From Deltaproteobacteria bacterium (GTDB lineage: Bacteria > Desulfobacterota > DSM-4660 > Desulfatiglandales > HGW-15), in the NCBI GenBank assembly GCA_019310525.1, contig JAFDEE010000026.1, positions 1 to 41,153 on the forward strand: a stretch of 41,153 bases of DNA. The letters run 5' to 3'. Positions within the stretch are counted from its first letter, which is position 1. Each line of letters opens with the position of its first letter. A program made the translations under genes and the position numbers. The notes beneath the pieces were generated by a model that made no database searches, was not told the DNA's origin, and worked only from the letters and a program-made list of their open reading frames with translations. Positions 15,559 to 40,364 of this stretch are shown one piece after another.

Positions 15559-15935
15559 TGGACTCATAAAATTCCTCGTAGAATCAGAGTGTTACAAAAA
15601 AGGATCCAAAGATAAGGGTTGTGATTCAGGAATGCCGGACCCCAGGATCTGAAACAAGAACGCCCGCAGATCGTTTTTATCTCTCCATTACTTCTCCCGT
15701 ACAAACCTCACCTTTTTTCTTGATTCTTCAATCAGAGAAAGAGTATGGTATTTTTGTAGCTATTTGCATACAATAAGTATACACAAAGAGACCTTTAAAA
15801 AACAAACGTTTTTCAAAGGTCTCACAAGGGCACTCGGCCCCTCCCTCCATTTCATGAGGCCTTTTATGATTGGGGATCGGGCCGGGGTTTGGGGAACTCC
15901 TGATTCAACCGCCACCATCTCAAAGGAGGGAAAAA
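15559..15935. other. intergenic region before the peptide transporter operon
   Basis: About 377 bp without a gene. It is AT-rich around 15720-15790 (GCATACAATAAGTATAC is a loose dyad and may be regulatory) and contains the GAGACC hairpin at 15788-15823. The promoter of the downstream operon should lie here, but I found no hexamer pair with correct spacing. Confidence 0.45.
15788..15823. repeat. GAGACCTTT palindromic element (copy 1)
   Basis: GAGACCTTT-a-AAAAAC, loop AAAC, GTTTTT-c-AAAGGTCTC is a 15-bp stem with one mismatch. The right arm, read on the minus strand (15823 to 15805), shares 19 consecutive bases with 34073-34091, so it belongs to a repeat present at least twice. It could also serve as a terminator for the amidohydrolase gene, though no T-tract follows. 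Confidence 0.7.
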
Positions 15936-17471
15936 ATGGGTGAGATAAAAACTTTACGAAGGTGTCTATGGATCTTTGGCGTGTTCATCGTCCTTGGGAT
16001 GATGGGGACCGGCGTGACTACCGCCGAATGCAAGACCAGGGTGGTCATAGCCCAAGGAGTTGAGCCGACAAGGCTGGATCCGGACATGCACCGGGAAAAC
16101 TCCACCCTGAATGTCATTCTCCATCTCTATGACGCGCTCCTTGAGCGGAACCAGGACGCAAAGATCGTGCCCGATCTGGCTGAATCCTGGCGGATACTGG
16201 ACGACAGGACCGTCGAGTTCAAGCTCCGCCGCGGTATCACCTTCAGCAACGGGGAACCTTTCAATGCCCAGGTGGTCAAATATAACTTCGAGCGTGTGGC
16301 GGGCCTTTTGCCGGGAGCCAAAAAGACCCTTAACGCCAGTGACTACCAGAGCATCAAAGAGGTCAAGATCCTGGACGATTACACCGTTCAAATCATCACC
16401 AAGCACCCGGACCCCTTGATCCTCTCCTACATTGCACAGAAATATATGGTGCCTATACAGTACACAAAGAAGGATAACTTCCGAAGCCTGGCGACCAAGC
16501 CCGTAGGTACCGGCCCTTATGTTCTCAAGCGCTGGAGGAAGGGAGGGGAATGCGTTCTTGAGGCCAGAAAGGATTACTGGAAAGGGGCGCCGAAAATCGA
16601 TGAGATCGTTTTCAGGCCCATCCCTGAGGATTCCACCCGAATCGCCGAGCTGAGGGTGGGGAACGTGGACATCATCGCCAACCTCAAGCCCGATAATATC
16701 CAGGAGGTAGAGGCTGAGAAGCACCTGGTTGTGAAGCGGGTTCCCAGTACCCGGGTGGCCGCGGTATGGATTAACGCCGAGATGGACAAGCTGAAAGACA
16801 AACGTGTGCGAAAGGCCATCAATTACGCTATAAACGTTGATTCTCTGGTAAAAAACGTTATGGACGGAAACGCAGTAAGGGTCTCGACCGTCGCCCCGTC
16901 CAATTTCGTAGGCTGGGATCCCCAGGAAAAATTCTATTCATACGATCCGGCCAAGGCCAAGAAGCTGTTGGCGGAGGCTGGTTTTCCCAACGGCTTTGAG
17001 GCCACCATTCTAACCCCCAGGGGACGCTATCTCAATGATGTGCAGGCCTGTGAGGCCATCGCCGGCATGCTCACCAAGGCAGGAATACGGACAAAGGTCA
17101 ACGCCGTGGAATTCGGTGTATTCGCCAAGAAGACCCAGGCCCACGAGATGCCCGAGTTCATGTACGCGGCCTGGGGGAACGCACACTTCGACGTCTGGGA
17201 CATGATCAAAACCTGTGTCAGGAGCGGGGCCATGTTCTCGTGGTACAAAAATGAAAAAGTGGATGAGTATATTGACAAGGCGGCCCAGACCATTGATCCT
17301 GAAAAACACAACAGATACCTCCAGTTGGCGTTGCGTGAGATGTGGGAGGACCCACCCTTCGCGTTTCTCTATGCCCAGCGTGATATCTATGGTGTAAACA
17401 AGCGGGTTGTATGGGAACCCCGCTCAGACGAGGAAATCAACCTCTACGGCGCCTACGTGAAAGGAAAATAA
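15936..17471 (+). CDS. ABC transporter substrate-binding protein, family 5 (peptide/nickel type)
   Basis: The 511-aa exported protein has a Sec signal peptide (basic start, hydrophobic core at about 12-26, likely cleavage near TTA-EC). It continues with the family-5 opening EPTRLDPDMHRENST and LAESWRILDDRTVEFKLRRGITFSNGEPFNA. Family members bind oligopeptides, dipeptides, nickel, heme or opines in the periplasm; the ligand is unknown. AAAGGAGG precedes ATG 15936, and an upstream in-frame start at 15870 was rejected. It heads the unit with two permeases and two creatininase-family enzymes, suggesting a cyclic amide or small peptide as cargo. Confidence 0.92.
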   Translation: MGEIKTLRRCLWIFGVFIVLGMMGTGVTTAECKTRVVIAQGVEPTRLDPDMHRENSTLNVILHLYDALLERNQDAKIVPDLAESWRILDDRTVEFKLRRGITFSNGEPFNAQVVKYNFERVAGLLPGAKKTLNASDYQSIKEVKILDDYTVQIITKHPDPLILSYIAQKYMVPIQYTKKDNFRSLATKPVGTGPYVLKRWRKGGECVLEARKDYWKGAPKIDEIVFRPIPEDSTRIAELRVGNVDIIANLKPDNIQEVEAEKHLVVKRVPSTRVAAVWINAEMDKLKDKRVRKAINYAINVDSLVKNVMDGNAVRVSTVAPSNFVGWDPQEKFYSYDPAKAKKLLAEAGFPNGFEATILTPRGRYLNDVQACEAIAGMLTKAGIRTKVNAVEFGVFAKKTQAHEMPEFMYAAWGNAHFDVWDMIKTCVRSGAMFSWYKNEKVDEYIDKAAQTIDPEKHNRYLQLALREMWEDPPFAFLYAQRDIYGVNKRVVWEPRSDEEINLYGAYVKGK

Positions 17472-17482
17472 CCCCATTGGAT

Positions 17483-17507
17483 GGGGGGCGGTGCGGCAGT
17501 GCCCCCC
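17483..17507 (+). other. intercistronic hairpin after the binding-protein gene
   Basis: GGGGGGC (17483-17489), an 11-nt loop, GCCCCCC (17501-17507) lies between the binding-protein stop and the permease start. It has no T-tract. Such structures protect the upstream mRNA segment and help make binding protein in excess of permease. Confidence 0.6.
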
Positions 17508-17522
17508 GTCCGAACCACCGGT

Positions 17523-18446
17523 ATGTTCGGATACCTTACCAGAAGATTCATCCACTCGGTTTTCATTATCATCGGGATCTCCCTTGCCGTCTTTGCCATT
17601 TCGCGGCTTACCGGTGACCCTGTCAGTCTCATGGTCGACTTCGACACCCCCCGGGAAGATCGCGAGGTGTTGAGGAAGGAACTGGGTCTGGACAAGCCCC
17701 TTCCCCTACAATATCTGATATTCCTCAAGGGAGCAGTAAAGGGAGAATTCGGCACCTCCATCCGTTACGAGGAACCGGCCCTCAAACTCGTCATCGAGAG
17801 GATCCCCGCCACCCTGAGACTTATCGCATTTACCCTCGGCTGGTCTCTTCTTATCGCCATCCCGGTAGGAATCATCTCCGCCCTCAAGCGGAACAGCTTT
17901 TTCGATCTGTTCGGGATGGCCATCACATTCCTGGGTCAGTCCATCCCGAGCTTCTGGCTGGGCATCATGCTCATTATGATCGTCGGCGTGAAATTTCACT
18001 TATTGCCCATCTCAGGGTACGGGGACGGCGACCTTTTACACGTCGTCATGCCAGCTCTGACCCTCGGGGCTTTCGAGATGGCCTCCTTTGCCAGGATCAC
18101 TCGATCCAGCATGCTGGAAGTCCTCGACATGGATTACATCCAAACCGCCAGGGCCAAAGGACTGCGGGAGACCGCTGTGGTGATCAAACATGCCTTTCGA
18201 AACTCCCTGATTCCTATTGTGACCATCATGGGCATTCACGTAGCACTTCTCATGGGAGGAGCCGTTATAACCGAACAGATTTTCGCCTATCCTGGTGTAG
18301 GATGGCTCGCCATTCAATCCATTTACAACCGTGATTTTCCCGTTATTCAAGCAATAGTTACAGTGGTTTCCGTAGGCGTAGTGGCCACCAATTTTCTCAT
18401 CGATATCCTCTACACCTTGATCGATCCAAGGATCCGCTATGATTAG
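17523..18446 (+). CDS. dppB: Peptide-type ABC transporter permease (DppB family)
   Basis: The 307-aa membrane protein begins FGYLTRRFIHSVFIIIGISLAVF and has about six hydrophobic segments. It carries the DppB-type stretch SLMVDFDTPREDREVLRKELGLDKPLP and the cytoplasmic EAA-type loop ARAKGLRETAVVIKHAFRNSLIP, which docks with the ATPase. It forms the pore with the DppC-like protein. The start at ATG 17523 matches the family N-terminus; no strong ribosome binding site is visible because the preceding bases belong to a hairpin, so translation may be modest. The symbol is at family level. Confidence 0.92.
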   Translation: MFGYLTRRFIHSVFIIIGISLAVFAISRLTGDPVSLMVDFDTPREDREVLRKELGLDKPLPLQYLIFLKGAVKGEFGTSIRYEEPALKLVIERIPATLRLIAFTLGWSLLIAIPVGIISALKRNSFFDLFGMAITFLGQSIPSFWLGIMLIMIVGVKFHLLPISGYGDGDLLHVVMPALTLGAFEMASFARITRSSMLEVLDMDYIQTARAKGLRETAVVIKHAFRNSLIPIVTIMGIHVALLMGGAVITEQIFAYPGVGWLAIQSIYNRDFPVIQAIVTVVSVGVVATNFLIDILYTLIDPRIRYD

Positions 18447-19299
18447 AGCAAACAATATCCTCAGGAAAATGCGGGGCAACAAGATGATCCTTTTCAGCTC
18501 CGTGATCCTGCTCCTTACCATCCTCTGCGGGACCTTCGCAGGGATCTTTGCTCCTTTCAGCCCTTACGATCAAGACCTCACCCATAAACTCAAGCCTCCT
18601 CTATGGAGGGATCCCGGGAACCGGATCCATCTCCTGGGGACCGATCAATTGGGAAGAGACGTCCTGAGCCGTATACTCTACGGCGTCCGGGTCTCGTTGG
18701 TAATCGGCATCCTGGCGGTAGCGATTTCCGCCGTCTTCGGTGTCGTCCTCGGGCTCCTCTCGGGGTTCTATGGAGGGTTTTTCGACGACCTCATCATGCG
18801 GATCGCAGATGTTCAACTTGCCATTCCCCTCATACTGCTCGCCATTTCCGTCATCGTGGTCCTGGGAAGCAACATGAAAGTACTTGTCCTTGTCATCGGA
18901 CTCACCCAGTGGATGTCTTACGCCCGCATGGTCCGGGGGGAAACCCTTTCTTTAAGGGAAAAGGACTTCGTAAGGTCCGCTTACGCTGTAGGAGCAACCG
19001 ACACCCGGATCATTCTACGTTATATCCTGCCCAACACCCTCTCATCCGTAATGGTCCTGATTACCCTCAACATGGCAACGGTGATCGTCCTCGAAGCCGG
19101 ACTCAGTTTCCTGGGCCTGGGAATCCAACCGCCCGAACCATCCCTGGGGACCATGTTGAGTGAAAGCAAAAACTACCTGAGCAGGGCCTGGTGGCTGAGC
19201 ACCTTTCCCGGTGTCACGATCATGACCATCATTCTGGCCATCAATCTCTTCGGCGACGGACTGAGGGATGTCTTTGATCCCCGCCTGGAAAACTACTGA
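18439..19299 (+). CDS. dppC: Peptide-type ABC transporter permease (DppC family)
   Basis: The 286-aa membrane protein has the DppC features: an N-terminal helix followed by APFSPYDQDL and HLLGTDQLGRDVLSRILYGVRVSL, several transmembrane helices, and the EAA loop VRSAYAVGATDTRIILRYILPN. It ends with the typical NLFGDGLRDVFDPRLEN. It overlaps the DppB-like gene by 8 nt, so the two are translationally coupled. The ATPases for this pore are probably the pair encoded on the opposite strand at 20.97-22.97 kb, as no other peptide-type ATPase is nearby. Confidence 0.93.
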   Translation: MIRANNILRKMRGNKMILFSSVILLLTILCGTFAGIFAPFSPYDQDLTHKLKPPLWRDPGNRIHLLGTDQLGRDVLSRILYGVRVSLVIGILAVAISAVFGVVLGLLSGFYGGFFDDLIMRIADVQLAIPLILLAISVIVVLGSNMKVLVLVIGLTQWMSYARMVRGETLSLREKDFVRSAYAVGATDTRIILRYILPNTLSSVMVLITLNMATVIVLEAGLSFLGLGIQPPEPSLGTMLSESKNYLSRAWWLSTFPGVTIMTIILAINLFGDGLRDVFDPRLENY

Positions 19300-19315
19300 T
19301 TGGAGGTGCTTTGAA

Positions 19316-20116
19316 TTGAGAAACACCGTTTTTATGGAAGAGATGACCTGGAAGGAAATCAAACAGTCTATTGAGGAAGGAAAAGATACGGCGATACTGG
19401 TGGCCGCTTCAATGGAACAGCACGGCCCTCACCTTCCCATCGCGACCGACACTATCATCGGATACGCCCTTGCCGGGTCTGCGGCGCAGCGGCTAGGAAA
19501 CGCCCTGGTGGCACCGGTTATCCGGCCTGCATTATCTCAGCACCACGTGGGATTTCCCGGAACCATCACCTTCCGAATGAAAACCTTTTTGGGCGTATTG
19601 AAAGATTGTTGCAGCGGCCTCAAGGCCCATGGATTCCGAAATGCAGTGCTCTTCGTCTCCCACGGCGGCAACATGGATGCCCTGAAGGCCTTCACTCCCT
19701 ACATCGCCAGGGATATCGGAAACGACATGCGTATTCACCTTGTCTTTGCACTGGAAAGGTTCATGGAAACCACCCGCGAAATCCTGGACAAGCAGGGAAT
19801 AACTCCTGAAAAGGCGGGGGTCCATGCAGGATTCAGTGAAACGGCCCTCATGCTGTACCTGAGGCCGGATCTCGTGGACATGAATCTGGCCGGGCCGGGA
19901 CTAGTGGAGGAGAAATTCTACCGTAGGGAAAACCTGGAGAATTTTAAGATTAGCACCTTCATTCACGGTATCGGTCATTTTTCCTGGAACGGAATACTGG
20001 GAGATCCCATGGGGGCGGATGCCCGGGTGGGCGAGGAGATCTTCCAGGCCACCGTTGAAGGCCTTGTTGAGGAAATCCGGCAATGCTTGGGCATGGAAGG
20101 AGGAAAAGAAAGTTGA
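19316..20116 (+). CDS. Creatininase-family amidohydrolase, copy 1
   Basis: The 266-aa enzyme carries the creatininase metal-site motifs: MEQHGPHLP with ATDT, SHGGN and HAGFSET, which supply Glu, His and Asp ligands for two divalent ions. The family opens cyclic amides (creatinine to creatine) and includes enzymes acting on other lactams or formamides; the true substrate is unknown. The start is TTG 19316, with GGAGGT at 19302-19307 eight bases upstream and only 16 nt after the permease. It is closely similar along its whole length to the next gene, a tandem duplication. Confidence 0.88.
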   Translation: MRNTVFMEEMTWKEIKQSIEEGKDTAILVAASMEQHGPHLPIATDTIIGYALAGSAAQRLGNALVAPVIRPALSQHHVGFPGTITFRMKTFLGVLKDCCSGLKAHGFRNAVLFVSHGGNMDALKAFTPYIARDIGNDMRIHLVFALERFMETTREILDKQGITPEKAGVHAGFSETALMLYLRPDLVDMNLAGPGLVEEKFYRRENLENFKISTFIHGIGHFSWNGILGDPMGADARVGEEIFQATVEGLVEEIRQCLGMEGGKES

Positions 20117-20904
20117 AGACAAAAGTGCTGATGGAAGAAATGAGCTGGGTAGAGATCCAGGAGGCCCTTCGCGAAGGGAAAGATGGGGTCATTGTGGTAT
20201 CGGGCTCCATCGAACAGCACGGCCCACACCTGCCTACCGCCACGGATACTATCCTGGGATACGAAGTGGCCAAACGGGCGGCCGAGGAACTCGGCGACAT
20301 CCTTGTCGCTCCCGTCATTCGGCCTTGCCTTTCCGCCCACCACATGGGATTCCCGGGTTCCTTCACCCTGAGCTGGGAGACCTACGCCGCGGTCCTGAGG
20401 GACTATTGCGAAAGCCTTGCCGAGGGGGGCTTCAGGAACATCGTCTTGACCTCTTCCCACGGGGGAAACATCGCTGTACTAAAGGCCCTTGTTCCAGACC
20501 TGGCAAGGGACCTGTGGGACCGAACCCACATCCACTTCGTTGACTTTCTAAGCCTTGCGGAGGAATCAGAAACGGCTTATCTGGAAACCCTGGGAATCTC
20601 AAGGGTCAAGGGGGGAGTCCATGCCGGGTATTCGGAGACCTCCCAGATGTTGGTGACAAGCCCCCATCTTGTGGAAATGGATGAGGCTCAAAAGGGCTTG
20701 GACGATGAAAGCTTCTATGCCCCGGAAAACATTTCGCGCTCCCAGGTCGACCTGTTCATCCGTGGTCTCGGGTCCTTTTCTCCCAACGGAATCCTCGGGG
20801 ACGCACGTGGGGCTGATCCAGCCACCGGGGAGAAGCTCCTTCAGATCGCGGCAAAGGCCCTCGTCGAGGGCATTTCAAACGCCCTGAAGAATCAGGATCC
20901 CTGA
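20113..20904 (+). CDS. Creatininase-family amidohydrolase, copy 2
   Basis: The 263-aa protein is a paralogue of the preceding gene. Shared blocks include MEEM at the start, IEQHGPHLP with ATDT, LVAPVIRPCLS, HHMGFPGS, SHGGN, HAGYSET and NGILGD. All expected metal ligands are kept in both copies, so neither looks inactivated. They may form a hetero-oligomer or have split substrate range. The start is TTG 20113, whose TTGA overlaps the stop of copy 1, with AAGGAGG nine bases before it. The gene ends the plus-strand unit and converges on the ATPase genes. Confidence 0.88.
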   Translation: MKTKVLMEEMSWVEIQEALREGKDGVIVVSGSIEQHGPHLPTATDTILGYEVAKRAAEELGDILVAPVIRPCLSAHHMGFPGSFTLSWETYAAVLRDYCESLAEGGFRNIVLTSSHGGNIAVLKALVPDLARDLWDRTHIHFVDFLSLAEESETAYLETLGISRVKGGVHAGYSETSQMLVTSPHLVEMDEAQKGLDDESFYAPENISRSQVDLFIRGLGSFSPNGILGDARGADPATGEKLLQIAAKALVEGISNALKNQDP

Positions 20905-20968
20905 GGAGGGGGCCAAAAAGCATTCAACCCTTTAGTAAGGTAAACGATTCTTTGATGATCTTCAGCTC

Positions 20969-21946
20969 CTAAGGTGATGTGAATTTCAGGCACCACACCC
21001 AGTGGTCAGGTTCCGCCTCATGCATGCGGGGAGGTTCCCGGCGGCATCGTTCCTCGGCCTCGGGACACCTCGTGTGAAAACGACATCCCGGCGGCGGGTC
21101 CACGGGATTGGGAACATCTCCTTCCAGAATAATCCGCTCCCGCTTCAGTCCTGGTTCTGGCACCGGCGAGGCTGAAAGCAGTGCTTTCGTATAGGGATGA
21201 AGGGCGCCCGATCGAAGCCTGTCCGCACCGGCCACCTCTACGATTCGCCCAAGATACATCACCGCGATCCGGTCGCACAGGTGCTCGATGACGGAGAGGT
21301 CGTGAGAGATGAAAAGATAGGTCAGGCCCATATTCTCCTTTAATTCCACAAGCAAGTTGATGACCTGGGCCTGAATGGAAACGTCCAGGGCGGAAACCGG
21401 CTCATCACAGACAACGAATTTCGGATTCAACGCCAGGGCGCGGGCGATGCCGATTCTTTGCCTCTGTCCTCCGGAAAATTCGTGCGGATAGCGGTTCAAA
21501 TGCTCCTCTTTGAGCCCCACCTCTTCCAGGAGCCTCAGGACCCTTTCTTTTTGCGTCTTTTGGTTTCCCCACCCATGGATGACAAGGGGTTCCCTGATCA
21601 ACTGCTCCACAGTGTATCGGGGATTCAGGGAAGAGTAAGGATCCTGGAAGATGATCTGCATTTCGGCTCTGAGGCGGCGCAGGTGCTCCTTGTCAAGGGA
21701 GGTGATGTCCTGCCCCTGGAATAGAATCGCTCCTTCTGTAGGTTCCTCCAAACGGAGAGCAATTCGACCAAGAGTGCTCTTTCCACAACCGCTCTCCCCG
21801 ACCAGGCCGAGGATTTCCCCCTCCCGGATGAAAAACGAGACACCGTCTACGGCCTTGATGGTCTTCTTCCCCGCGGAAAAGGCCCCTTTCCTGATCGGGT
21901 AGTATTTCTTCAGGTTTTCCACACGAAGCAGTTCCTGCGATTCCAT
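20969..21946 (-). CDS. dppF: Peptide-type ABC transporter ATPase (DppF/OppF family)
   Basis: The 325-aa ATPase has Walker [13 protein letters not shown], the signature [15 protein letters not shown], Walker [14 protein letters not shown] and the switch His in [11 protein letters not shown]-terminal oligopeptide-transporter extension carries the Cys-rich region of these subunits ([16 protein letters not shown]), which often binds an Fe-S cluster. It works as a heterodimer with the neighbouring DppD-like ATPase. ATG 21946 lies 12 nt after the DppD stop; an alternative start at 21985 would overlap DppD by 28 nt. Confidence 0.93.
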
Positions 21947-21957
21947 TTCTTCCGCCC

Positions 21958-22968
21958 TCAATGCACGTGAAGCCAACACCGGCAATGATGCTCAGGCGCG
22001 ACTTCCACATCCGGAGGATCTTCCTTGAAGCACTTTTCCCAGGCCCTGCTGCACCTGTCGCTGAACCTGCATCCCTGGGGCAGGCTGGTCAGGCTGGGCA
22101 CCACACCGGGAATGGCCTCCAGCTTCCTTTGTCTTGTGCGATCCCTGCCCGGCCTTGGGATGGATCGCATCAGACCGACTGTGTAAGGATGGACCGGATG
22201 GGTAAAAAGTTCATACACCTCCGAATATTCCACGATTTTGCCGGCATACATCACCGCCACGTACTGGGCCGTCTCGGCAATAACCCCCAGATCATGGGTA
22301 ATCAGGATGATGGAAGTCCGGGTCTCTTCCTGGAGTTTCAGCATGAGGTCCAGGATCTGGGCCTGGATCGTCACATCCAGGGCCGTGGTGGGTTCGTCCG
22401 CGATCAAAAGCTTCGGGGAACAGCAAAGCGCCATAGCAATCATAACCCTCTGCCTCATTCCTCCGCTTAATTGGTGAGGATACGCCTTCGCGCGCCTGGC
22501 GGGGGCCTGAATCCCGACAGCTTTCAACATCTCTACGGAATGGGCAAAGGCCTCCCGTTTCGGCAGGTCTTGGTGAAGGCTGATCGCCTCGGCAATCTGA
22601 TCTCCCACCCTGTGGACCGGGTTAAGGGAAGTCATGGGTTCCTGGAAGATCATGGAAATTCGGTTTCCCCTGATTCTTCTCATTTCGGCAATGGGTTTTT
22701 TCAGCAGATCTTCCCCTTCGAACAGGATCCTGCCGGCCTCGATCTTACCGGGCGGATCCTTGATGAGTCTCAGAATGGAAAGGGCCGTGACGCTCTTCCC
22801 GCAACCCGATTCCCCCACGAGCCCGACGACTTGCCCTTCCTTTACAGACAGGTCCAGATCGTCGACGGCCGTTGCGGCACCCATTTTGGTATGAAAGCTG
22901 GTCTTCAGACCTTTAATCACCAGGAGTTCCCGTTGAGGGGACATCTTCTCGACACTTTCTCCAGTCAT
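21958..22968 (-). CDS. dppD: Peptide-type ABC transporter ATPase (DppD/OppD family)
   Basis: The 336-aa ATPase contains Walker [13 protein letters not shown], the signature [15 protein letters not shown], Walker [14 protein letters not shown] and the switch His in ILITHDLGV. The OppD C-terminal domain has the Cys-rich block [23 protein letters not shown] precedes the ATG. It starts 41 nt after the PAS-LuxR gene on the same strand, so regulator and the two ATPases form one minus-strand operon, convergent with the genes for their presumed permeases. Confidence 0.93.
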
Positions 22969-23009: not shown

Positions 23010-23891
23010 TCAAGTCGTCTTTCCGGCCAGAGACAGATAGGAGCGCAGATTCACCTTCTTGTTTGTAAGGCCCAGTTTCTTCCGTATCTTGTCCCGATGA
23101 AAATCGACGGCCGCCTTGCTGACGCAAAGTATCTCAGCGATTTCCTTGGTCGTTTTTCCCACCTTGATGAGATTGGCCACCTGGATCTGTCTGGGGGTCA
23201 GGATCGGATGGGTGGCGGACAATTCCCGGTAAAATGGATCGATGATATCATGGAGGTTGGACTTGATGATTTTCACGTAGGCCATGTGCCTGGCGTCCAA
23301 GGGTGCTTTTTCCAGATCCTCCACGAAAGGCATGATCAACTTTTCAACGTTAAACAGGATGTTCTTTTGGAGTTCTATCCTGTCCTCGTTTCGCTGGTCG
23401 AGCAGTACTCTGAGGGCCGTGTTGGTCTCTTCAAGTTTTCTGGATTGGACTTCCAGCTCTGCTTCCCTCTTTTTGAGGGCCTCCTCCGCCCTCTTCCTCT
23501 CGGTGATGTCCACCACGTTGACAAGGGTCGCCGGTTCATCAAAATCATCTATCACGGTGGCCCTCACCTCAATCCAGATAACCTCCCCGTCCTTTCGAAT
23601 CCATCGGGTTTCATAATAATCTCTCACCTTCTTCTTCTTCAATCTGGCCAGGGCGATCTTCCGGACCCTCTCCCGCTCTTCGGGATGCACCATCTCGTAA
23701 GGCCCCATCTTCCTGATATCCTCCGGGGTGTATCCCGTAATTTCCTGAAATGTCTGGTTCGTGAAGATAATCCCTTTGGCGGTCGTAATGAGGATACCTG
23801 TGAGAGAATGGTCCACCAAGGCCCGGAAAAGGGAATCGGATTCGGTGATCGGCACCTTTTTCTTGGGAGAAGTCGTTCTTTGCTTGCCCAT
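23010..23891 (-). CDS. PAS-domain LuxR-type transcriptional regulator
   Basis: The protein (293 aa from ATG 23891; 312 aa if TTG 23948 is used) has a PAS domain (LFRALVDHSLTGILITT to LVNVVDITERK), a coiled-coil linker of about 50 residues and a C-terminal LuxR helix-turn-helix (LTPRQIQVANLIKVGKTTKEIAEILCVS, VDFHRDKIRKKLGL). PAS senses a ligand or redox cue. No receiver domain or kinase domain is visible, so it is probably a one-component regulator. Neither start has a convincing ribosome binding site. It is cotranscribed with dppDF and divergent from livK, across a perfect dyad that is its likely binding site. Confidence 0.87.
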   Translation of the reverse strand: MGKQRTTSPKKKVPITESDSLFRALVDHSLTGILITTAKGIIFTNQTFQEITGYTPEDIRKMGPYEMVHPEERERVRKIALARLKKKKVRDYYETRWIRKDGEVIWIEVRATVIDDFDEPATLVNVVDITERKRAEEALKKREAELEVQSRKLEETNTALRVLLDQRNEDRIELQKNILFNVEKLIMPFVEDLEKAPLDARHMAYVKIIKSNLHDIIDPFYRELSATHPILTPRQIQVANLIKVGKTTKEIAEILCVSKAAVDFHRDKIRKKLGLTNKKVNLRSYLSLAGKTT

Positions 23892-24111
23892 GAGAGACAC
23901 CAAACTTGTACCTGAATCTTGCAAGCGTCGAGTTTGCCGAAGATGCAAGGCATCGACCGCATTCAGGTTGTAATTTCATCCACCGGGCGGTGGGCCTTCC
24001 TTCTGCTGACGCCCTTTCCGCATAGTTTTGGAAAAGACCCAACCCCCGGAAAGATACCAAAAAACCCACCGGTTATCAAAAGACTCGCGCGGCACGGTGA
24101 TCCCGGCCTTT

Positions 24112-24134
24112 AGTATTAGGATATACCTAATACT
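24112..24134. promoter_or_regulatory. perfect 9-bp dyad, probable operator of the PAS-LuxR regulator
   Basis: AGTATTAGG, spacer ATATA, CCTAATACT. The centre (24123) lies about 68 bp upstream of the predicted livK transcription start, a typical class I activator position, and overlaps the -10 of the predicted promoter on the other strand. Two-fold symmetry suits a LuxR-type dimer. Confidence 0.6.
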
Positions 24135-24148
24135 TTACCCTTAATCAA
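24120..24148 (-). promoter_or_regulatory. putative promoter of the PAS-LuxR/dppDF operon
   Basis: On minus, TTGATT (24148-24143), a 17-nt spacer and TATATC (24125-24120) form a moderate sigma-70 promoter. Its -10 sits inside the dyad at 24112-24134, which would allow negative autoregulation. Confidence 0.4.
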
Positions 24149-24154
24149 CTAATA

Positions 24155-24184
24155 TTGAAACTATCTTTTTATCTTTGCTATGAT
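24155..24184 (+). promoter_or_regulatory. promoter of the livKHMGF operon
   Basis: TTGAAA (24155-24160, 5 of 6), an 18-nt spacer and TATGAT (24179-24184, 5 of 6), with a TGC extended -10 just before it. Transcription would start near 24191, leaving a leader of about 230 nt before livK. Confidence 0.6.
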
Positions 24185-24419: not shown

Positions 24420-25658
24420 ATGAAGAAATGGATCGTGGGAATCGTCTTGATTGCCTTTTTTTGTGTCCCTTTCATGATCGTGCAGCACTCTTACGCTGCA
24501 GATAATGTCTGGCGCATCGGGACCATCTTTCCAATGACCGGTCCCCTTTCCAAAAACGGAATCAAGAATTCCGACGGGGTCAAAATCGCCACCGAGATGA
24601 TAAACGATGCAGGCGGCGTGCTGGGGAAAAAAGTCGTCCTGGTGAGCGCGGATGCCCCGGATCCCCAGGCAGCTGCCAGTGAGGCAAACCGGCTGATTAC
24701 CCACGAAAAGGTAACGGCCATCATCGGAACCCAGGCCAGCAGTCTTTCCATGGCGGCAACGACCGTTGCTGAAAAAAACAAGATCTTTTACCTGGAAAAT
24801 GAGGGAATTTCAGGCCTCATCACCGCCCGCGGCTTCAAGTACATCTTCCGGACCACCTTTAACAGCACCATGATGACCACCCAGATGGTGGATTACGCCG
24901 CTGATGTCCTCGGTCCCAGAAAACTGGGGAAGAAAGCCAGTGAACTCCGTCTGGCAATCATTCACGAAGACGGCGGGTTCGGGACCTCTTCAGGCAAGGG
25001 CCTCATGGCCAGGGCGAAGCAAAGGGGGCTGAAAGTCGTTGCTTCCGAGACATACAGCGCCAAGTCCACAGATCTCTCTTCCCTTGTTCTGAAACTCAAG
25101 CGGGCGAAACCCGATATTCTTCTGGCCGCCCAGTACATCAACGACTCCATACTCTTCCACAGGCAGGCACGTGAGATGAGATTTAAGACCCTGGTGATCG
25201 GAACCACTGCCGGACAGGGCAATCCCGATTTCTACAAGGCCCTTGGCAAGGACGCCGAAGGTGTACTGGCAGGCGGCATCCCCTCCGAGATCTCCGTTGA
25301 AGGGCTTGCTGAAGGCCCCAAAAAAGACGCCAAGGAATTCGTCCGCCGTTACCGTGAAAGCCATAACGGTGAATATCCCAATCCCACATCCTTCGTAGGG
25401 TTTGCAGGAGCTTGGGTCCTTTACAAGTTTATCCTTCCCAAGGCCGGCAGCCTGGATCCTGAAAAACTGAGGGAGGCCGCCCTGAGTTTGGATATTCCGA
25501 GAGGACAGGGGGTTCTTAACTGGGGAGTGAAATTCGCGGGCCCGGACCAGAAAAACGCAGGACAGAATCTCTATGCCTCTGCTGCCATCAACCAGTGGCA
25601 AAACGGGGAGATGAAACTGATTTATCCGAGAGAAATCGCTTCCTCGGATCTCAAGTAA
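24420..25658 (+). CDS. livK: Branched-chain amino-acid-type ABC transporter substrate-binding protein
   Basis: The 412-aa protein has a Sec signal peptide (MKKW start, hydrophobic core, likely cleavage after HSYA) and the type-I periplasmic binding fold: IGTIFPMTGPLSKNG, EMINDAGGVLGKKV and VTAIIGTQASSLSMA. Relatives bind branched-chain amino acids, other amino acids, amides or aromatic acids, so the ligand is open. AAGGAGG precedes ATG 24420; a longer open frame from 24213 would hide the signal peptide and was rejected. It is the first gene of a full five-gene transporter operon and is followed by a strong hairpin. Confidence 0.92.
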   Translation: MKKWIVGIVLIAFFCVPFMIVQHSYAADNVWRIGTIFPMTGPLSKNGIKNSDGVKIATEMINDAGGVLGKKVVLVSADAPDPQAAASEANRLITHEKVTAIIGTQASSLSMAATTVAEKNKIFYLENEGISGLITARGFKYIFRTTFNSTMMTTQMVDYAADVLGPRKLGKKASELRLAIIHEDGGFGTSSGKGLMARAKQRGLKVVASETYSAKSTDLSSLVLKLKRAKPDILLAAQYINDSILFHRQAREMRFKTLVIGTTAGQGNPDFYKALGKDAEGVLAGGIPSEISVEGLAEGPKKDAKEFVRRYRESHNGEYPNPTSFVGFAGAWVLYKFILPKAGSLDPEKLREAALSLDIPRGQGVLNWGVKFAGPDQKNAGQNLYASAAINQWQNGEMKLIYPREIASSDLK

Positions 25659-25661
25659 CAG

Positions 25662-25721
25662 GCAACCGCAGGATGATTCCATGGATCTCCGGTTAACAAG
25701 ATCCATGGAATCATCCGTTGC
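25662..25721 (+). other. large intercistronic hairpin between livK and livH
   Basis: GGATGATTCCATGGATC (25671-25687), a 12-nt loop, and its exact complement (25700-25716) form a perfect 17-bp stem. Outer GCAAC/GTTGC (25662-25666, 25717-25721) extends it across a 4-nt bulge. No T-tract follows. It starts only 4 nt after the livK stop and probably stabilises livK mRNA or limits readthrough into livH. Confidence 0.75.
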
Positions 25722-25885: not shown

Positions 25886-26815
25886 ATGGACGCAACCCTC
25901 TTTTTCCAGCTTCTGATCGCCGGTATCCTGCTCGGGGGCATTTACGCTCTGGCGAGCATCGGGCTAACACTCATCTTCGGGGTCATGAAGATCGTCAACT
26001 TCGCCCACGGCGAATTCCTGATGCTGGCCATGTATTTCAGTTACTGGCTTTTTCATTCTCTGCATCTGGATCCATACATTTCCATCATTGTCGTCGCCCC
26101 CGGACTTTTCTTGCTGGGCCTCATTGTATATCGTATCATCATCAAGCCCACCATCGGGGCTCCAGTCCTGGCGCAGATCTTCGTCACCGTGGGCTTGTCC
26201 ATGGTGATCGAGAACCTGGCGCTTCTCATCTGGTCCGCGGATTTCAGGACCGTCTCCCTTGATTACCTTCAGCATTCCATCCTGATCGGTCCCTTTCCCT
26301 CCCTCGGACTGGAGGAAATGATCATTAATCCCGCGCGTCTCATCGCCTTTATCATTGGAACCTCCCTGGCGGTTGCTTTTTACCTGTTTCTGAAATTCAG
26401 CTATACCGGGAAGGTGATCCGGGCCACATCACAGGATCGATCCACCGCACAACTCATGGGAATCAATATAGACAAGATCTATAGGGTGACCTTCGCCATC
26501 GGAATCTTTCTGGTCGGTGTGGCCGGGGCCCTGATGATTCCCATTTATACCGTGCATCCCTTCGTCGGATTCGAATTCGTCCTTGTCATGTTCGTCGTGG
26601 TGGTCCTCGGGGGAATGGGCAGCATCGTCGGGGCCATGATCGCGGGAATCTTCATCGGAATAATTGAAGTGTTTTCCGGTTACATCCTGGGTCCTGACAG
26701 CAAAGAGGCCATCTATTTCCTGGTGTTTATCGCAGTGCTGGTCATAAAACCTTCCGGATTGTTCGGACTAGAAGGAGAAGAAGAGCTTGAACGAATCGAA
26801 GCCATCGACGCATAG
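25886..26815 (+). CDS. livH: Branched-chain amino-acid-type ABC permease LivH
   Basis: The 309-aa membrane protein starts with the typical LLIAGILLGGIYALASIGLTLIFGVMKIVNFAHGE and has about eight hydrophobic segments. It carries the LivH-type cytoplasmic region RATSQDRSTAQLMGINIDKIYR that contacts the ATPases, and the VVLGGMGSIVGAMIAG motif. It pairs with LivM to form the inner-membrane pore. About 230 nt separate it from livK, occupied by the large hairpin. Confidence 0.94.
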   Translation: MDATLFFQLLIAGILLGGIYALASIGLTLIFGVMKIVNFAHGEFLMLAMYFSYWLFHSLHLDPYISIIVVAPGLFLLGLIVYRIIIKPTIGAPVLAQIFVTVGLSMVIENLALLIWSADFRTVSLDYLQHSILIGPFPSLGLEEMIINPARLIAFIIGTSLAVAFYLFLKFSYTGKVIRATSQDRSTAQLMGINIDKIYRVTFAIGIFLVGVAGALMIPIYTVHPFVGFEFVLVMFVVVVLGGMGSIVGAMIAGIFIGIIEVFSGYILGPDSKEAIYFLVFIAVLVIKPSGLFGLEGEEELERIEAIDA

Positions 26816-27797
26816 GGGGAACACCCTTCAAATCGCCGTTCTGATCCTGGGATTTCTCGCTGCGGCCATCGGGCCGCTCTTCATCAAGAATGATTTCTAT
26901 CTGGACGGCTTTATCCTCATTTTTCTCTGGGGTGCCTTTTCCGGCGCATGGAACATCATTTCCGGCTATGCCGGGATGGTTTCCCTGTGTCACAACGCCT
27001 TTTTCGCCATCGGGGCCTATACGTCCACATTGCTTTTCCTTCGCTTCGGCATTACTCCATGGGCGGGCTTGCTCGTCGGCGGCCTCCTTGCGGCGGCTGT
27101 TGGACTGCTTCTCGGGATCGTGTGTTTCCGGCTGAGGAGCCACTACTTTGTTTTGGCCACCCTAGCCTTCGGACAGGTGACCTTCATCATCAGCACGAAC
27201 TGGCGTTCCCTTACCGAGGGCGCCGAAGGACTCGCTCTGCCCATTGAACCAAGTTTTTACAACATGATTTTCCAGGGGAAGCTTCCCTATGTATACCTGG
27301 GCCTGGCCCTGCTGCTGTTGGTCATGATCATCTCCTATTCCATCGAAAATTCACGGCTCGGATATTACCTTACAGCCTTCAGGGAAAACGAGGACGCAGC
27401 CCGCGCGCTTGGTGTTAAAACGGGAAGGGTTCGTTTGATCGCCATGGGGATCAGCTCCTTTCTCGCGGCCGTAACAGGCACCTTTTACGCCCAGTACATC
27501 ATCTATATCGACCCTTCAAGCGTGGCCCGACTTCAGCTATCGGTCCAGGTGGCCCTCTTCACCATTGTGGGCGGACTCGGCACCGTCCTGGGGCCCACGA
27601 TAGGCGCTATCATTTTCATTCCGATCACCATATTCCTGAGGGCCACTCTGGGGACGGCGGTTCCCGGCCTTCACATGATCATCTACGGGTCGATCCTCAT
27701 CCTTGTGCTCCTTTTCATGCCTAAGGGCATTTACGGAACATTAAAGGGCAAGGGTTACCCGGCCTTTTCACGCAAACTCTATAAGGGAAGAAGTTGA
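26787..27797 (+). CDS. livM: Branched-chain amino-acid-type ABC permease LivM
   Basis: The 336-aa membrane protein has the LivM features LWGAFSGAWNIISGYAGMVSLCHNAFFAIGAYT, the cytoplasmic loop AFRENEDAARALGVKTGRVR and the TIVGGLGTVLGPTIGA region. TTG 26787 is the likely start: AAGGAG lies nine bases before it and there is no suitable ATG until well into the conserved part. It overlaps livH by 29 nt, implying translational coupling. Confidence 0.92.
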   Translation: MNESKPSTHRGNTLQIAVLILGFLAAAIGPLFIKNDFYLDGFILIFLWGAFSGAWNIISGYAGMVSLCHNAFFAIGAYTSTLLFLRFGITPWAGLLVGGLLAAAVGLLLGIVCFRLRSHYFVLATLAFGQVTFIISTNWRSLTEGAEGLALPIEPSFYNMIFQGKLPYVYLGLALLLLVMIISYSIENSRLGYYLTAFRENEDAARALGVKTGRVRLIAMGISSFLAAVTGTFYAQYIIYIDPSSVARLQLSVQVALFTIVGGLGTVLGPTIGAIIFIPITIFLRATLGTAVPGLHMIIYGSILILVLLFMPKGIYGTLKGKGYPAFSRKLYKGRS

Positions 27798-27809
27798 GGA
27801 ATTCGCCCC

Positions 27810-28544
27810 ATGCTTGAGGTCCATGAGATAAGCAAGTTTTTCGGTGGAAACCCGGCCCTTCAACATGTCAGCTTCCGGATCGACAAGGGAGAGGTCGTGG
27901 GACTCATCGGTCCCAACGGATCCGGAAAGACCACCCTTTTCAATGTGGTCACGGGATTTCTCCGTTCCAAGACTGGCTCCATCCGCTTTGATGGAAAGAA
28001 CATCTCCTGTATGAAACCCGAAGATATCTGCTTCCTCGGGCTTTGCCGCACCTTCCAGATCACCAAACCCTTCAGCAACATTCCCGTGCTCAAGAACGTC
28101 ATGATCGGGGCGCTGGTCAGGGAAAAGAGCCTCAAAGGTGCCAGGAAAAAGGCTGAAGAGGTACTGGAGTTCGTCGGTATGCAGGACAAGAAGGACGTCC
28201 TGGGAAAGAGCCTGACCATCGCAGACCGTAAACGTCTTGAGATTGCCAGGGGACTGGCTACCTCCCCAAGGCTTTTCCTCCTTGATGAAGTCATGGCGGG
28301 CCTTACTCCAAGCGAACTCCAGGAGATAATGGCCCTTATCCGCAAGATGGTGGACTCCGGGATCACGCTTTTCGTGATCGAGCATATCATGGCGGCGATG
28401 ATGAACCTGGCCGAGAGAATCATCGTACTGGATCACGGAGAAATCATCGCCCAGGGGGAACCTGCGGAAATAGCCTGTGATCCCAATTGTATCAAGGCTT
28501 ACCTAGGAGAGGAGTATCTGAGTGCTCAACATCAACAACCTTAA
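27810..28544 (+). CDS. livG: Branched-chain amino-acid-type ABC ATPase LivG
   Basis: The 244-aa ATPase has Walker A GLIGPNGSGKTT, a signature-region variant (LTIADRKRLEIARGLAT), Walker B FLLDEVMAGL and the switch His in FVIEHIMAA. The signature begins LTIAD rather than LSxGQ or LPYGx; this ADRKRLEIAR form occurs in some LivG-like proteins. Walker B ends in DEVMAGL, also common in LivG. It sits 12 nt after livM and forms a heterodimer with LivF. Confidence 0.92.
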   Translation: MLEVHEISKFFGGNPALQHVSFRIDKGEVVGLIGPNGSGKTTLFNVVTGFLRSKTGSIRFDGKNISCMKPEDICFLGLCRTFQITKPFSNIPVLKNVMIGALVREKSLKGARKKAEEVLEFVGMQDKKDVLGKSLTIADRKRLEIARGLATSPRLFLLDEVMAGLTPSELQEIMALIRKMVDSGITLFVIEHIMAAMMNLAERIIVLDHGEIIAQGEPAEIACDPNCIKAYLGEEYLSAQHQQP

Positions 28545-29226
28545 CGTTTCCTATGGTGATGTCCAGGTCCTTTTCGACGTATCCTGCTCTATTGAAGAGG
28601 CGGAACTCGTATCGATCGTCGGGGCCAACGCTGCGGGAAAAAGCACCCTTCTAAGAGCAATATCCGGAATCTTGCGAAAGGTATCCGGATCCATCCGGTT
28701 CAAGGAAAAAGAACTCGTGGGCATGCCCGCCCATGAAGTGGTTTCCCTCGGGATCGTTCACATCCCCCAGGGACGCCGGGTCTTTCCTGCGATGACGGTC
28801 CAGGAAAACCTGGAACTCGGATTTTACTCCCAGAGGGCGGGAGGAGGCATTCAAGAACTGCTGAATCAGATGTACGACTTCTTCCCTGAGCTCTCCAAAC
28901 TAAAGGGTCGACTAGCCGGGCGGTTAAGTGGAGGAGAGCAGCAAATGCTGGCCATCGCCCGGGGCCTGATGGCTCGTCCGGTGCTTCTCACGGTGGACGA
29001 ACCCTCACTCGGCCTTGCCCCGATTCTAGTTGAAAAAACCTTCCAGATCATTGAAAGGATCAAGCAGGAAAAAGTCACCATATTGCTCGTGGAACAAAAC
29101 GTGTTCAAGGCCCTAAACATCTCCGACCATGCCTACGTCATAGAGAACGGCCGTATCGTAATGCAAGGTCTCGGTAAAGATCTGCTCCAGGATGAACACC
29201 TGAAGAAGGCCTATCTCGGTATGTGA
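28522..29226 (+). CDS. livF: Branched-chain amino-acid-type ABC ATPase LivF
   Basis: The 234-aa ATPase has Walker A SIVGANAAGKST, a LivF-type IPQGRRVFPAMTVQENLELG block, the signature LSGGEQQMLAIARGLMA, Walker B LLTVDEPSLGLAP and the switch segment ILLVEQN (Gln in the usual LivF form). The start is GTG 28522, preceded by GGAGAGGAG and overlapping livG by 23 nt. The operon ends here; the next gene starts 158 nt later and may still be read from the same promoter. Confidence 0.94.
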   Translation: MLNINNLNVSYGDVQVLFDVSCSIEEAELVSIVGANAAGKSTLLRAISGILRKVSGSIRFKEKELVGMPAHEVVSLGIVHIPQGRRVFPAMTVQENLELGFYSQRAGGGIQELLNQMYDFFPELSKLKGRLAGRLSGGEQQMLAIARGLMARPVLLTVDEPSLGLAPILVEKTFQIIERIKQEKVTILLVEQNVFKALNISDHAYVIENGRIVMQGLGKDLLQDEHLKKAYLGM

Positions 29227-29384
29227 GGGTTCTTTACCGAAATTTCCAACTCTCCTATCGGCGGGCTTTCTGATGTCAGGACCGCGTGCGCCCGATTTGT
29301 GAGGAAAGCCACCCGCAAAAGAAACCTCCGGCCGGGCCGACCTTCCTGTTTTTTTTCGATTTTATGGACCCAGGAGAAAAGAAA

Positions 29385-30548
29385 ATGCACGAAACAGTGA
29401 ACAAATCGGATTCCTCCCTGGAAAGGGAATTCCCTTTCCAGGTTCCCGACTACCGCTTCGATCAAAAAAACGAGATGTTCAAGAGGCGAACCTGGGATCC
29501 GGAGTTCAAGCCCCATGGAGACCGCCTTTACAATACCATCAAGTTCCAGGACAGATACGGATACCGCAAATTGGATTATGCCTTGCGTAATGCCGCATGG
29601 AACCTGGAATACGGGTATGCATTCGGCAATATGTGCAGCAACTACGGGCTCTATTCCTGGGACCACATCCCGGCAAAGGCCAAGCGTTTCGTGGAAACGG
29701 GAGGGGCTGTCAAGAACAGCCCCGAGGTCAACACCCGTATCGTGAAAAAGGCGGCCAGGCTTTTCGGGGCGGACCTTGTGGGCGTCTGTTACGCCCACCC
29801 CAATCTCGTCTATTCCCACGAATACGACCTCGTTCACATGGAACACAAGCCGCTGGAACTACCGCCGGGATGCACCAACGCCATCGTCATGGCCATAGAG
29901 ATGAACTACGAGGCGACCCGCTACTCCCCGGATGCCATATCTGGCGCGGCCACCGGCCTCGGCTACTCGATGCAGGCCGTAGTGGCCAACCTCCTGGCCG
30001 CTTTTATCCGCGGCCTCGGGTACCGCGCGGTCCCGTCCGGGAACGACACCGCCCTGTCCATCCCCCTGGCCATGGCTGCCGGCCTTGGAGAACTGGGACG
30101 CATGGGACTTCTTATCACCCCCGTGTTCGGGCCGCGGGTCAGGATATGCAAGGTTTTCACGGACCTTCCCCTTGTCCACGACACCTATCGACCTTTCGGG
30201 GTTGCCAAATTCTGCGAAACATGCAAAAAATGCGCGAGAAACTGCCCTTCCCAGGCCATCACCTTCGGGGAGCCGACCATGGAGGGACCTTCCATGTCCA
30301 ACTTTTCCGGGGTCCTGAAATGGTATATCAACCCGGAAAAATGTTTTCTCTTCTGGGTCAAGAACTGGATGGATTGCAACAATTGTGTCATGTCCTGCCC
30401 CTTTAACAAGCCCGCGGGAAAGATCCATGACCTTACCAGGTTCTTGATCCGCCGCGCGCCGATTTTCAACCGTGCCTTCCTGTGGATGGACGATCTCATG
30501 GGATACGGGAAACCTCTGCGGAACAAGAGATACTGGGAACGGCCTTAA
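29385..30548 (+). CDS. Reductive-dehalogenase-like Fe-S protein, copy 1
   Basis: The 387-aa protein resembles RdhA, the corrinoid and Fe-S reductive dehalogenase: IRGLGYRAVPSGNDTALSIPLAMAAGLGELGRMGLLITPVFGPRVRICKVFTDLPL is followed by two clusters, CETCKKCARNCP and C-x10-CNNCVMSCPFNKP. No twin-arginine signal peptide is present and no RdhB anchor gene adjoins, so it should be cytoplasmic, unlike respiratory RdhA. It is also shorter than usual (about 450-500). It may act on halogenated compounds or catalyse another corrinoid/Fe-S reduction. CAGGAG precedes ATG 29385; a T8 run upstream (29349-29356) may mark a weak terminator after liv. Confidence 0.8.
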   Translation: MHETVNKSDSSLEREFPFQVPDYRFDQKNEMFKRRTWDPEFKPHGDRLYNTIKFQDRYGYRKLDYALRNAAWNLEYGYAFGNMCSNYGLYSWDHIPAKAKRFVETGGAVKNSPEVNTRIVKKAARLFGADLVGVCYAHPNLVYSHEYDLVHMEHKPLELPPGCTNAIVMAIEMNYEATRYSPDAISGAATGLGYSMQAVVANLLAAFIRGLGYRAVPSGNDTALSIPLAMAAGLGELGRMGLLITPVFGPRVRICKVFTDLPLVHDTYRPFGVAKFCETCKKCARNCPSQAITFGEPTMEGPSMSNFSGVLKWYINPEKCFLFWVKNWMDCNNCVMSCPFNKPAGKIHDLTRFLIRRAPIFNRAFLWMDDLMGYGKPLRNKRYWERP

Positions 30549-30673
30549 CTCCAGGCCTTACCAACCATTTCCCAAGGCGCACCTGTTGAATCCCGGGACC
30601 GGGTTATTCGGTCCAAATCCCTTCGTGATATGGGCGGGGAAGGCCCCAAAGGATTATCAGACTTGTAATTCCC

Positions 30674-31576
30674 ATGGAACTGCCTTTTTACCACATCGGC
30701 GAGCTGGCCGCCCTGGGGGCGGCTTTCCTTTGGGCGGTGGCCACCGTCCTTTTTCGCCGCATCGGGTTCGAAATCCCTCCCCTCCTTTTGAATCTGCTAA
30801 AGGGCCTGGTCAGTCTCTTACTGGTGGGCCCAACCTTACTCCTCACTCAAGAGTCACACACCCCTGTGGAACCTGCGGGCTGGTTGCTGCTCCTTTTAAG
30901 CGGGGTGTTCGGCATCGGCTGCGGCGACACCTTTTTTTTCGCATCCCTGAACCGGATCGGCGAGGGCCGCTCGGTCCTGATCGTCGAAACGGTGGCCCCA
31001 CTTTTCGCCACTCTTTTCTCGATGGGGTTCCTGTATGAATTTCTTCCTCTCCAGGGATTCCTTGGAATCGCTGTGACCGTGGCTGGGGTCGGCTGGGTCC
31101 TTGCCGAGAGAACCACTCCCTCCGACGGCGCCAGAAGGCGGGCCAAGCGCGGAATTCTTCTTGGACTTGCGGCCGCCTTTTTCCAGGCGGTCGGTTCGGT
31201 TCTTTCCAGGGCGGCCTTCCTTCACACCGAGATCACGCCGATGTGGAGCACCCTGATCCGGCTGATCGGTGGGAACCTCTTTTTACTCGTTTTCATCCCC
31301 CTTCGGGGCCAGGCCCTGTTTCCAAGAGCATTGATGTCTCTGAAGATCTGGACATTCATTCTCGCTGCGACCTTTTTTGGAACCTACCTGGGCATCCTGT
31401 TTCAACAGATCTCCCTGAAATATACCAGTGCAGGGATCGCTCAGACCCTCATGGGAACGAGCGCTTTGTTCGTCCTGCCTTTCACTCTCTTGCGGGGAGA
31501 ACGGGTAAGCCTGCGGGCGGTACTGGGTGCCCTCGTTGCCCTCTGCGGTATCTTTTTGCTCTTCAGTCTGAAATGA
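30674..31576 (+). CDS. EamA/DMT-family transporter
   Basis: The 300-aa membrane protein consists of two EamA repeats of about five helices each: HIGELAALGAAFLWAVATVLFRR starts the first and RAKRGILLGLAAAFFQAVGSVLSR the second. DMT proteins usually export metabolites or amino acids; the substrate is unknown. It lies between the two RdhA-like genes, with only 20 nt to the second one, so an operon link is likely, perhaps exporting a product or taking up a substrate of these enzymes. Confidence 0.85.
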   Translation: MELPFYHIGELAALGAAFLWAVATVLFRRIGFEIPPLLLNLLKGLVSLLLVGPTLLLTQESHTPVEPAGWLLLLLSGVFGIGCGDTFFFASLNRIGEGRSVLIVETVAPLFATLFSMGFLYEFLPLQGFLGIAVTVAGVGWVLAERTTPSDGARRRAKRGILLGLAAAFFQAVGSVLSRAAFLHTEITPMWSTLIRLIGGNLFLLVFIPLRGQALFPRALMSLKIWTFILAATFFGTYLGILFQQISLKYTSAGIAQTLMGTSALFVLPFTLLRGERVSLRAVLGALVALCGIFLLFSLK

Positions 31577-31596
31577 CAGGAGAAAAGGAGATTTCA

Positions 31597-32742
31597 ATGA
31601 AAGTCGTGAATGAACCCACATACAAGAAATACATTACAGGGGAACTGAAACGATTCGACGACCGGAATACGGCCTTCAGCCGGGGCCACGTGGAGGGGAA
31701 CAAGTACACGGCCATGCACGAGAAAGGCATCACGAACATGCTGAACGCCCCTCCGGGTCAAACCATCCTGGACCATGCAACGTCGGTGGCCGGGGGCACT
31801 GTGGATTACGTGGTGCGCATGAATCTCCTCGGGAGGGAAATGAAGCCGATCTATAATGACGGGTATCGTCTGAAGGATCCAGACCCCGCCGCCATGAGCC
31901 GGGTAATCAAAGAAAAGGCCAAATGGATCGGAGCGGACGACGTGGGCATCGCCCGGATCAACCCCCTGTGGATCTATTCCCACTGGGGCCACCACAACGT
32001 CAAGTATTCCCAGGCCGCCGAAGTAGGGGATCCGATTGAACTTCCATCCGGATATAAGTTCGTGATCGTCATGCTCAACGAGTTGGCACACGAAGTCATA
32101 CAGCGGTCCCCTGCGGTTGAATACGAAACGGACATCAGCTACTCAAAAGGGGTATGGTGCGCGGCCTCCCTCGCTACTTTCATAACTGAACTCGGGTACC
32201 GGGCCATACCGACGGTCAATGAAATCGGGATCAACGTGGCCATGGCCGTGGATGCCGGCCTGGGTGAAATGGGGCGGAGCGGGCAGCTCATCACCCGCGA
32301 TTACGGCCCCAGAGTGCGCATCAGCAAGGTCTTTACGGATCTCCCCCTTATTCCTGACCGACCCGTTGATATCGGGGTCCAGGAGTTTTGCGAGAAGTGC
32401 GCGATCTGCGCCCAATACTGTCCCAGCGAGGCGATTCCCATGGGGGAGAGAACAGACAGGGCATGGGATGAGTGCAATTCCCCCGGTATGCTGAAATGGC
32501 CGATCCATGCCATGAAATGCTTTGATTGGTGGGTTAAAAACGGGAACCACTGCTCCATTTGTATTCGCGTTTGCCCGTGGAACAAGCCCAACGACGCCCT
32601 CCACAAAGGGGTCCGTTTCTTTGCGGAGCGAAACATCTTCACCCGACTCATCGTCCGGATGGATCAAATGATGGGTTACGGGAAACAGGTGGTGAAGGAC
32701 GGCCCAGTAAAGGACTGCTCCGTGGAGCGAAAGAAGAGATGA
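31597..32742 (+). CDS. Reductive-dehalogenase-like Fe-S protein, copy 2
   Basis: The 381-aa protein is a distant paralogue of the gene at 29385. It keeps ITELGYRAIPTVNEIGINVAMAVDAGLGEMGRSGQLITRDYGPRVRISKVFTDLPL and the two 4Fe-4S clusters: CEKCAICAQYCP, then C-x10-CSICIRVCPWNKP. It also lacks a twin-arginine signal. Both copies share the middle motif WIGADDVGIARINP / LFGADLVGVCYAHP, the region between the N-terminal and corrinoid-type domains. The long open frame upstream of ATG 31597 runs through the EamA gene in another frame; AAAGGAG six bases before the ATG fixes the start. The gene is convergent with the lipoprotein gene. Confidence 0.8.
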   Translation: MKVVNEPTYKKYITGELKRFDDRNTAFSRGHVEGNKYTAMHEKGITNMLNAPPGQTILDHATSVAGGTVDYVVRMNLLGREMKPIYNDGYRLKDPDPAAMSRVIKEKAKWIGADDVGIARINPLWIYSHWGHHNVKYSQAAEVGDPIELPSGYKFVIVMLNELAHEVIQRSPAVEYETDISYSKGVWCAASLATFITELGYRAIPTVNEIGINVAMAVDAGLGEMGRSGQLITRDYGPRVRISKVFTDLPLIPDRPVDIGVQEFCEKCAICAQYCPSEAIPMGERTDRAWDECNSPGMLKWPIHAMKCFDWWVKNGNHCSICIRVCPWNKPNDALHKGVRFFAERNIFTRLIVRMDQMMGYGKQVVKDGPVKDCSVERKKR

Positions 32743-40321: not shown

Positions 40322-40364
40322 CCTGTGTCATCCTGAAAATCTCTGATTTTCAGGATGACACAGG
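40322..40364. repeat. perfect 20-bp inverted repeat at the IS end
   Basis: Each arm is 20 bp (40322-40341 and 40345-40364) and begins or ends CCTGTGTCAT / ATGACACAGG around a 3-nt loop. It starts 19 bp beyond the transposase stop. It may be the terminal structure of the IS or its terminator, blocking readthrough from either side. Confidence 0.7.

Follow-up and report, generated by a model that had tools for sequence, protein, structure and literature searches.

The Streptomyces PAS-LuxR activators PimM and PteF act through an operator box, CTVGGGAWWTCCCBAG, that forms a 16-bp palindrome (PMC9774167). The regulators characterised for reductive dehalogenases are of three kinds, namely CRP/FNR, MarR and two-component systems (PMC12090745). 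The two subjects meet in the window described here (the whole stretch of DNA that was analysed, 41,153 nt), where a PAS-LuxR gene stands divergently from a liv-type transporter gene row that is followed by reductive dehalogenase genes. The genes concerned are as follows.

15870 to 19299, plus strand: dppA, dppB and dppC (dppA and dppB by NCBIfam, dppC by position only)
20969 to 21985, minus strand: dppF-like ABC ATPase gene, overlapping dppD
21958 to 22968, minus strand: dppD-like ABC ATPase gene, starting 41 bp past the regulator gene
23010 to 23948, minus strand: PAS-LuxR (GerE) transcriptional regulator gene; the reading frame opens with TTG at 23948, and ATG at 23891 is the likelier start
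24420 to 25658, plus strand: livK-type substrate-binding protein gene (Pfam Peripla_BP_6), ATG at 24420
25886 to 29226, plus strand: livH, livM, livG and livF (Pfam BPD_transp_2/ABC_tran)
29286 to 32742, plus strand: reductive dehalogenase, EamA transporter and reductive dehalogenase genes, after livF

The regulator has the N-terminal PAS domain and C-terminal GerE helix-turn-helix that mark the PAS-LuxR family, both above the Pfam gathering score (PAS_3, 6.5e-19; GerE, 1.7e-12), and the two ATPases encoded downstream of it carry ABC_tran plus oligo_HPY domains (Pfam). Both dehalogenases, which the first-pass annotation had overlooked, exceed the TIGR02486 cut-off; in the source genome (3.8 Mb) roughly a dozen genes pass the cut-off of the reductive dehalogenase family. 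Gene order and strand suggest that the liv row and the dehalogenase genes form one transcript. Two other inverted repeats were seen in the window. A perfect hairpin with 18-bp arms (25671-25716) lies just past the livK stop codon, in the 227-bp gap preceding livH, and could set the ratio of LivK to permease; a perfect inverted repeat with 20-bp arms (40322-40364) lies near an integrase-core gene (40384-41139).

A perfect dyad between the divergent genes

The dyad that had been claimed between the divergent PAS-LuxR/dppDF and livKHMGF genes is present as described. Its host is a 528-bp intergenic region, with the minus-strand PAS-LuxR gene on one side and plus-strand livK on the other.

24112 to 24134, no strand: candidate operator, perfect dyad AGTATTAGG-ATATA-CCTAATACT, from the sequence and shuffles
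24148 to 24156, plus strand: weak third half-site ACTAATATT, matching CCTAATACT at 7 of 9 positions

Read from the letters, the full dyad is AGTATTAGGATATACCTAATACT, 23 bases comprising two perfect 9-bp arms and a 5-nt spacer, and it is set in a 101-bp AT-rich patch of 29% GC. Dinucleotide shuffles, in which any dyad with perfect arms of at least 9 and a gap of at most 10 was counted, give such a feature by chance in 2.3% of cases for the 528-bp intergenic region and in 0.6% for the AT-rich patch alone, the feature having been chosen post hoc and the figure of about 2% being uncorrected for that choice. By the same definition the entire window contains five perfect dyads, as against none to two in shuffles. 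The dyad beats chance, yet only weakly for a feature picked after the fact. The half-site ACTAATATT, which lies 22 bp from the right dyad arm and overlaps the start of the predicted liv -35 element, was rejected as a real third half-site, an equal match being present in 22% of shuffles and the resemblance therefore not significant.

Further copies were sought on several scales. Within the window there is no second copy at up to three mismatches (none being expected), and hence none near dppABC. The first-pass annotation had proposed looking elsewhere in the genome, at other transporters linked to PAS-LuxR genes, and at the same tolerance the source genome (3.78 Mb, 158 contigs) yields no other copy there or at any other position. 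Across 85 genomes of the class, a search at up to two mismatches found two other sites, one within a coding sequence and one by the 3' end of a gene and thus neither in a promoter region, and a reversed-pattern control found more matches, in more genomes, than the dyad pattern itself. An exact scan of GTDB genomes (257 Gb) returned only two matches, on unrelated contigs, which is about what chance gives for 18 fixed bases in a collection of that size.

Predicted promoters and the position of the dyad

Promoters were scored with a simple E. coli-like matrix, and all transcription starts given here are predictions.

24155 to 24184, plus strand: predicted liv promoter TTGAAA-18-TGc-TATGAT, +1 near 24191
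24051 to 24079, minus strand: best predicted PAS-LuxR-dppDF promoter TTGATA-17-TGg-TATCTT, +1 near 24044
24120 to 24148, minus strand: weaker predicted promoter TTGATT-17-TATATC, its -10 overlapped by the dyad, +1 about 24113

The liv promoter has the top score in the region, 13.7 bits with 10 of 12 consensus matches, compared with 10.5 bits at the 95th percentile of shuffles. The best minus-strand promoter (24079-24051) scores 12.5 bits and lies 32 bp from the dyad, with no overlap. The palindrome is thus flanked by two divergent predicted promoters, its centre falling at about -68 relative to the liv start and at about -79 relative to that of PAS-LuxR-dppDF. The former distance agrees with the first-pass annotation, which had placed the dyad near -68 of a strong extended -10 liv promoter. 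Its further statement that the dyad covers the opposing -10 applies to a sequence scoring 7.1 bits, under the median best score of 7.7 bits in shuffles, and the 12.5-bit promoter is untouched. Since the better minus-strand promoter lies outside the dyad, the basis for self-repression by covering a -10 is removed, and because the dyad is upstream of both predicted promoters, simple promoter occlusion is not suggested.

The same position had been described as class I activator spacing. Measured cooperativity for CRP is 763-fold at -61.5 and 105-fold at -71.5, and is absent at -66.5 (PMC6301791), so that a centre at -68 would lie near the face that is poor for CRP; this counsels caution and does not refute activation from the dyad. 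Other activators, or a start shifted by one or two bases, could depart from the CRP pattern.

The proposal that one dyad couples the peptide transporter with liv is not supported by gene order. The dpp-type transporter is split across 15870-22968, with dppABC and the two creatininase-family genes that come after it, all on the plus strand, converging on minus-strand dppDF. Only the ATPase genes share the regulator's strand; dppABC is necessarily expressed from another promoter, and the dyad alone therefore cannot switch the whole peptide transporter.

The regulator and its putative target genes in relatives

LivK orthologues with 69-76% identity occur in six related genomes (G005, G011, G028, G040, G076 and G096); a seventh, in G133 (73%), was left out of the upstream reading. 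The dyad is absent from the regions upstream of livK in G005, G011, G040, G076 and G096. For G028 (locus L046) the downstream side was read, and the pattern search of that genome at up to two mismatches found no dyad. In G040 the product of the gene divergent from livK reads as GntR-like (translation by inspection only), which suggests that control of liv differs between lineages.

The transporter row itself is better preserved. In G005, a genome of the same family, locus L078 retains livKHMGF followed by the first dehalogenase gene at 62-75% identity, along with an aromatic amino acid lyase (74%) and a DUF1847 protein (63%), and inspection of that locus found it to be without PAS-LuxR, dpp genes or the dyad. 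The implication is that the transporter-dehalogenase row probably predates the present regulator arrangement.

No close orthologue of the regulator turned up in the searched genomes, the best matches reaching at most 48% identity over full length, and no palindrome was found to be common to the regulator's upstream region and those of 45 PAS-LuxR homologues. Good dyads are present in 8 of these 46 upstream regions (this one included), where 2.5 would be expected; their sequences differ and some are terminator-like. A LivK-type gene lies within 1.5 kb of 5 of the 52 other PAS-LuxR loci examined (L016, L026, L065, L072 and L073), a count given without a formal base rate and with two of the five loci coming from one genus. 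In four of the five the LivK-type gene is just downstream of the PAS-LuxR homologue and co-directional with it, and the intergenic regions leading from these homologues to the co-directional livK genes contain no motif matching the dyad. Conservation in relatives is thus lacking on both sides, the dyad being missing both from the livK upstream regions that were read and from those of the 45 homologues, so that the site follows neither the regulator nor the putative target genes as the operator of a local regulator might be expected to do.

A separate observation concerns G005, in which locus L085 (8526-13308) has a PAS-LuxR homologue between two reductive dehalogenase genes. Near 11333-11361, upstream of this homologue and in the region where it diverges from a dehalogenase gene, there is a perfect palindrome with 13-bp arms.

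Readings of the dyad and comparison with known systems

The reading that we tentatively prefer, as possible without being secure, is that the dyad is a single operator of the adjacent PAS-LuxR protein, lying upstream of both divergent promoters. A dimeric regulator would dock at the dyad in the divergent promoter region, and the bound dimer, controlled by its PAS domain, would modulate, probably by activation, the liv promoter (with the downstream dehalogenase genes), the PAS-LuxR-dppDF promoter, or both. The same dimer would adjust synthesis of the regulator, rather than repress it by covering a -10. That the site is an operator at all is suggested by its perfect 9-bp arms (0.6-2% by shuffles), by the well-formed divergent extended -10 promoters on either side and by the adjoining gene for a PAS and GerE protein; the single copy in the genome fits a local regulator. 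That PAS-LuxR is the binder is suggested by resemblance to the Streptomyces box, by the LivK-adjacent homologues and by the palindrome in G005. Against this stand the lack of motif conservation, the small share of PAS-LuxR upstream regions with any good dyad (8 of 46, with differing sequences), the mismatches to the Streptomyces box at 5 of 16 positions and the want of a close orthologue in which co-variation might be followed. From the original idea of one regulator serving two operons, what is retained is a plausible regulator site, a palindrome that precedes a good liv promoter next to a PAS and GerE gene; occlusion of the opposing -10 and control of the whole peptide transporter find no support. 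In its original form, with one PAS-LuxR dimer covering its own -10 and activating liv as a class I factor, the idea has the right distance to the liv promoter and is nonetheless very improbable, given that the covered -10 falls under the shuffled score with a much better promoter outside the dyad, that CRP is inactive at -66.5 (PMC6301791), and that the operon carries just half of the peptide transporter.

The alternative to be taken most seriously, although itself unlikely, is that the palindrome arose by chance in AT-rich promoter DNA and binds nothing specific. Shuffles put such a dyad in about 2% of intergenic regions of this length, and the window offers many intergenic regions to choose from; the lack of conservation and of a second copy, like the chance-level number of exact matches in 257 Gb, points the same way. 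The position next to a regulator gene, between divergent genes and directly before a strong promoter, and the 0.6% within the AT-rich patch argue against chance. It is doubtful that the dyad is instead the operator of an unlinked regulator (TetR, MarR, GntR or similar), with PAS-LuxR acting elsewhere or indirectly on both sides. Such a regulator would account for the lack of a palindrome common to the PAS-LuxR homologues, and the GntR-like gene divergent from the G040 livK orthologue (translation by inspection only) points to lineage differences in liv control, but more than one site would usually be expected and the genome has none at up to three mismatches. An RNA stem-loop in a leader is scarcely credible: the arms could pair into a 9-bp stem closed by a 5-nt loop, but the dyad is upstream of both predicted starts and would be untranscribed, a U-tract is absent, and a search of the region against Rfam gave a sub-threshold chance match only.

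If PAS-LuxR binds the dyad, this would be a first candidate operator for a regulator subfamily common in the phylum, and would tie that subfamily to a transporter-dehalogenase operon; as one unreplicated palindrome, the dyad carries limited weight. The finding is ordinary in kind, and its most interesting extension is the link to the reductive dehalogenase genes. In its full form, in which the dyad lets a cytosolic PAS-LuxR sensor exert direct control over a Liv-type importer whose operon also encodes two reductive dehalogenases, we consider that extension improbable.

Set against known systems, the locus resembles that of PimM and PteF in pairing a regulator of PAS and LuxR-type helix-turn-helix domains with a palindrome that has TAGG...CCTA half-sites and an AT-rich middle. 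Indeed, the dyad core TTAGG-N5-CCTAA recalls the box CTVGGGAWWTCCCBAG (PMC9774167). The TAGG-CCTA spacer is 5 here and 6 in the Streptomyces box, the outer arms differ too, and a strict PimM box is not found at the dyad, the best ungapped fit leaving 5 of 16 positions mismatched. Unlike the PimM type, which is placed in the -35 region of its target, the dyad is centred at -68 relative to the predicted start of liv. In its layout, a single palindrome with divergent promoters and an adjoining regulator gene, the region is like the divergent operators of local regulators of the LuxR, LysR and GntR types, from which it differs in that the candidate site is not conserved in relatives. As to the dehalogenases, PAS-LuxR belongs to none of the three kinds of characterised regulator, the link here coming from gene order only. 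Were direct control true, it would add a kind of dehalogenase regulator beyond CRP/FNR, MarR and two-component systems, and the G005 homologue, with its own palindrome beside dehalogenase genes, would be a second case.
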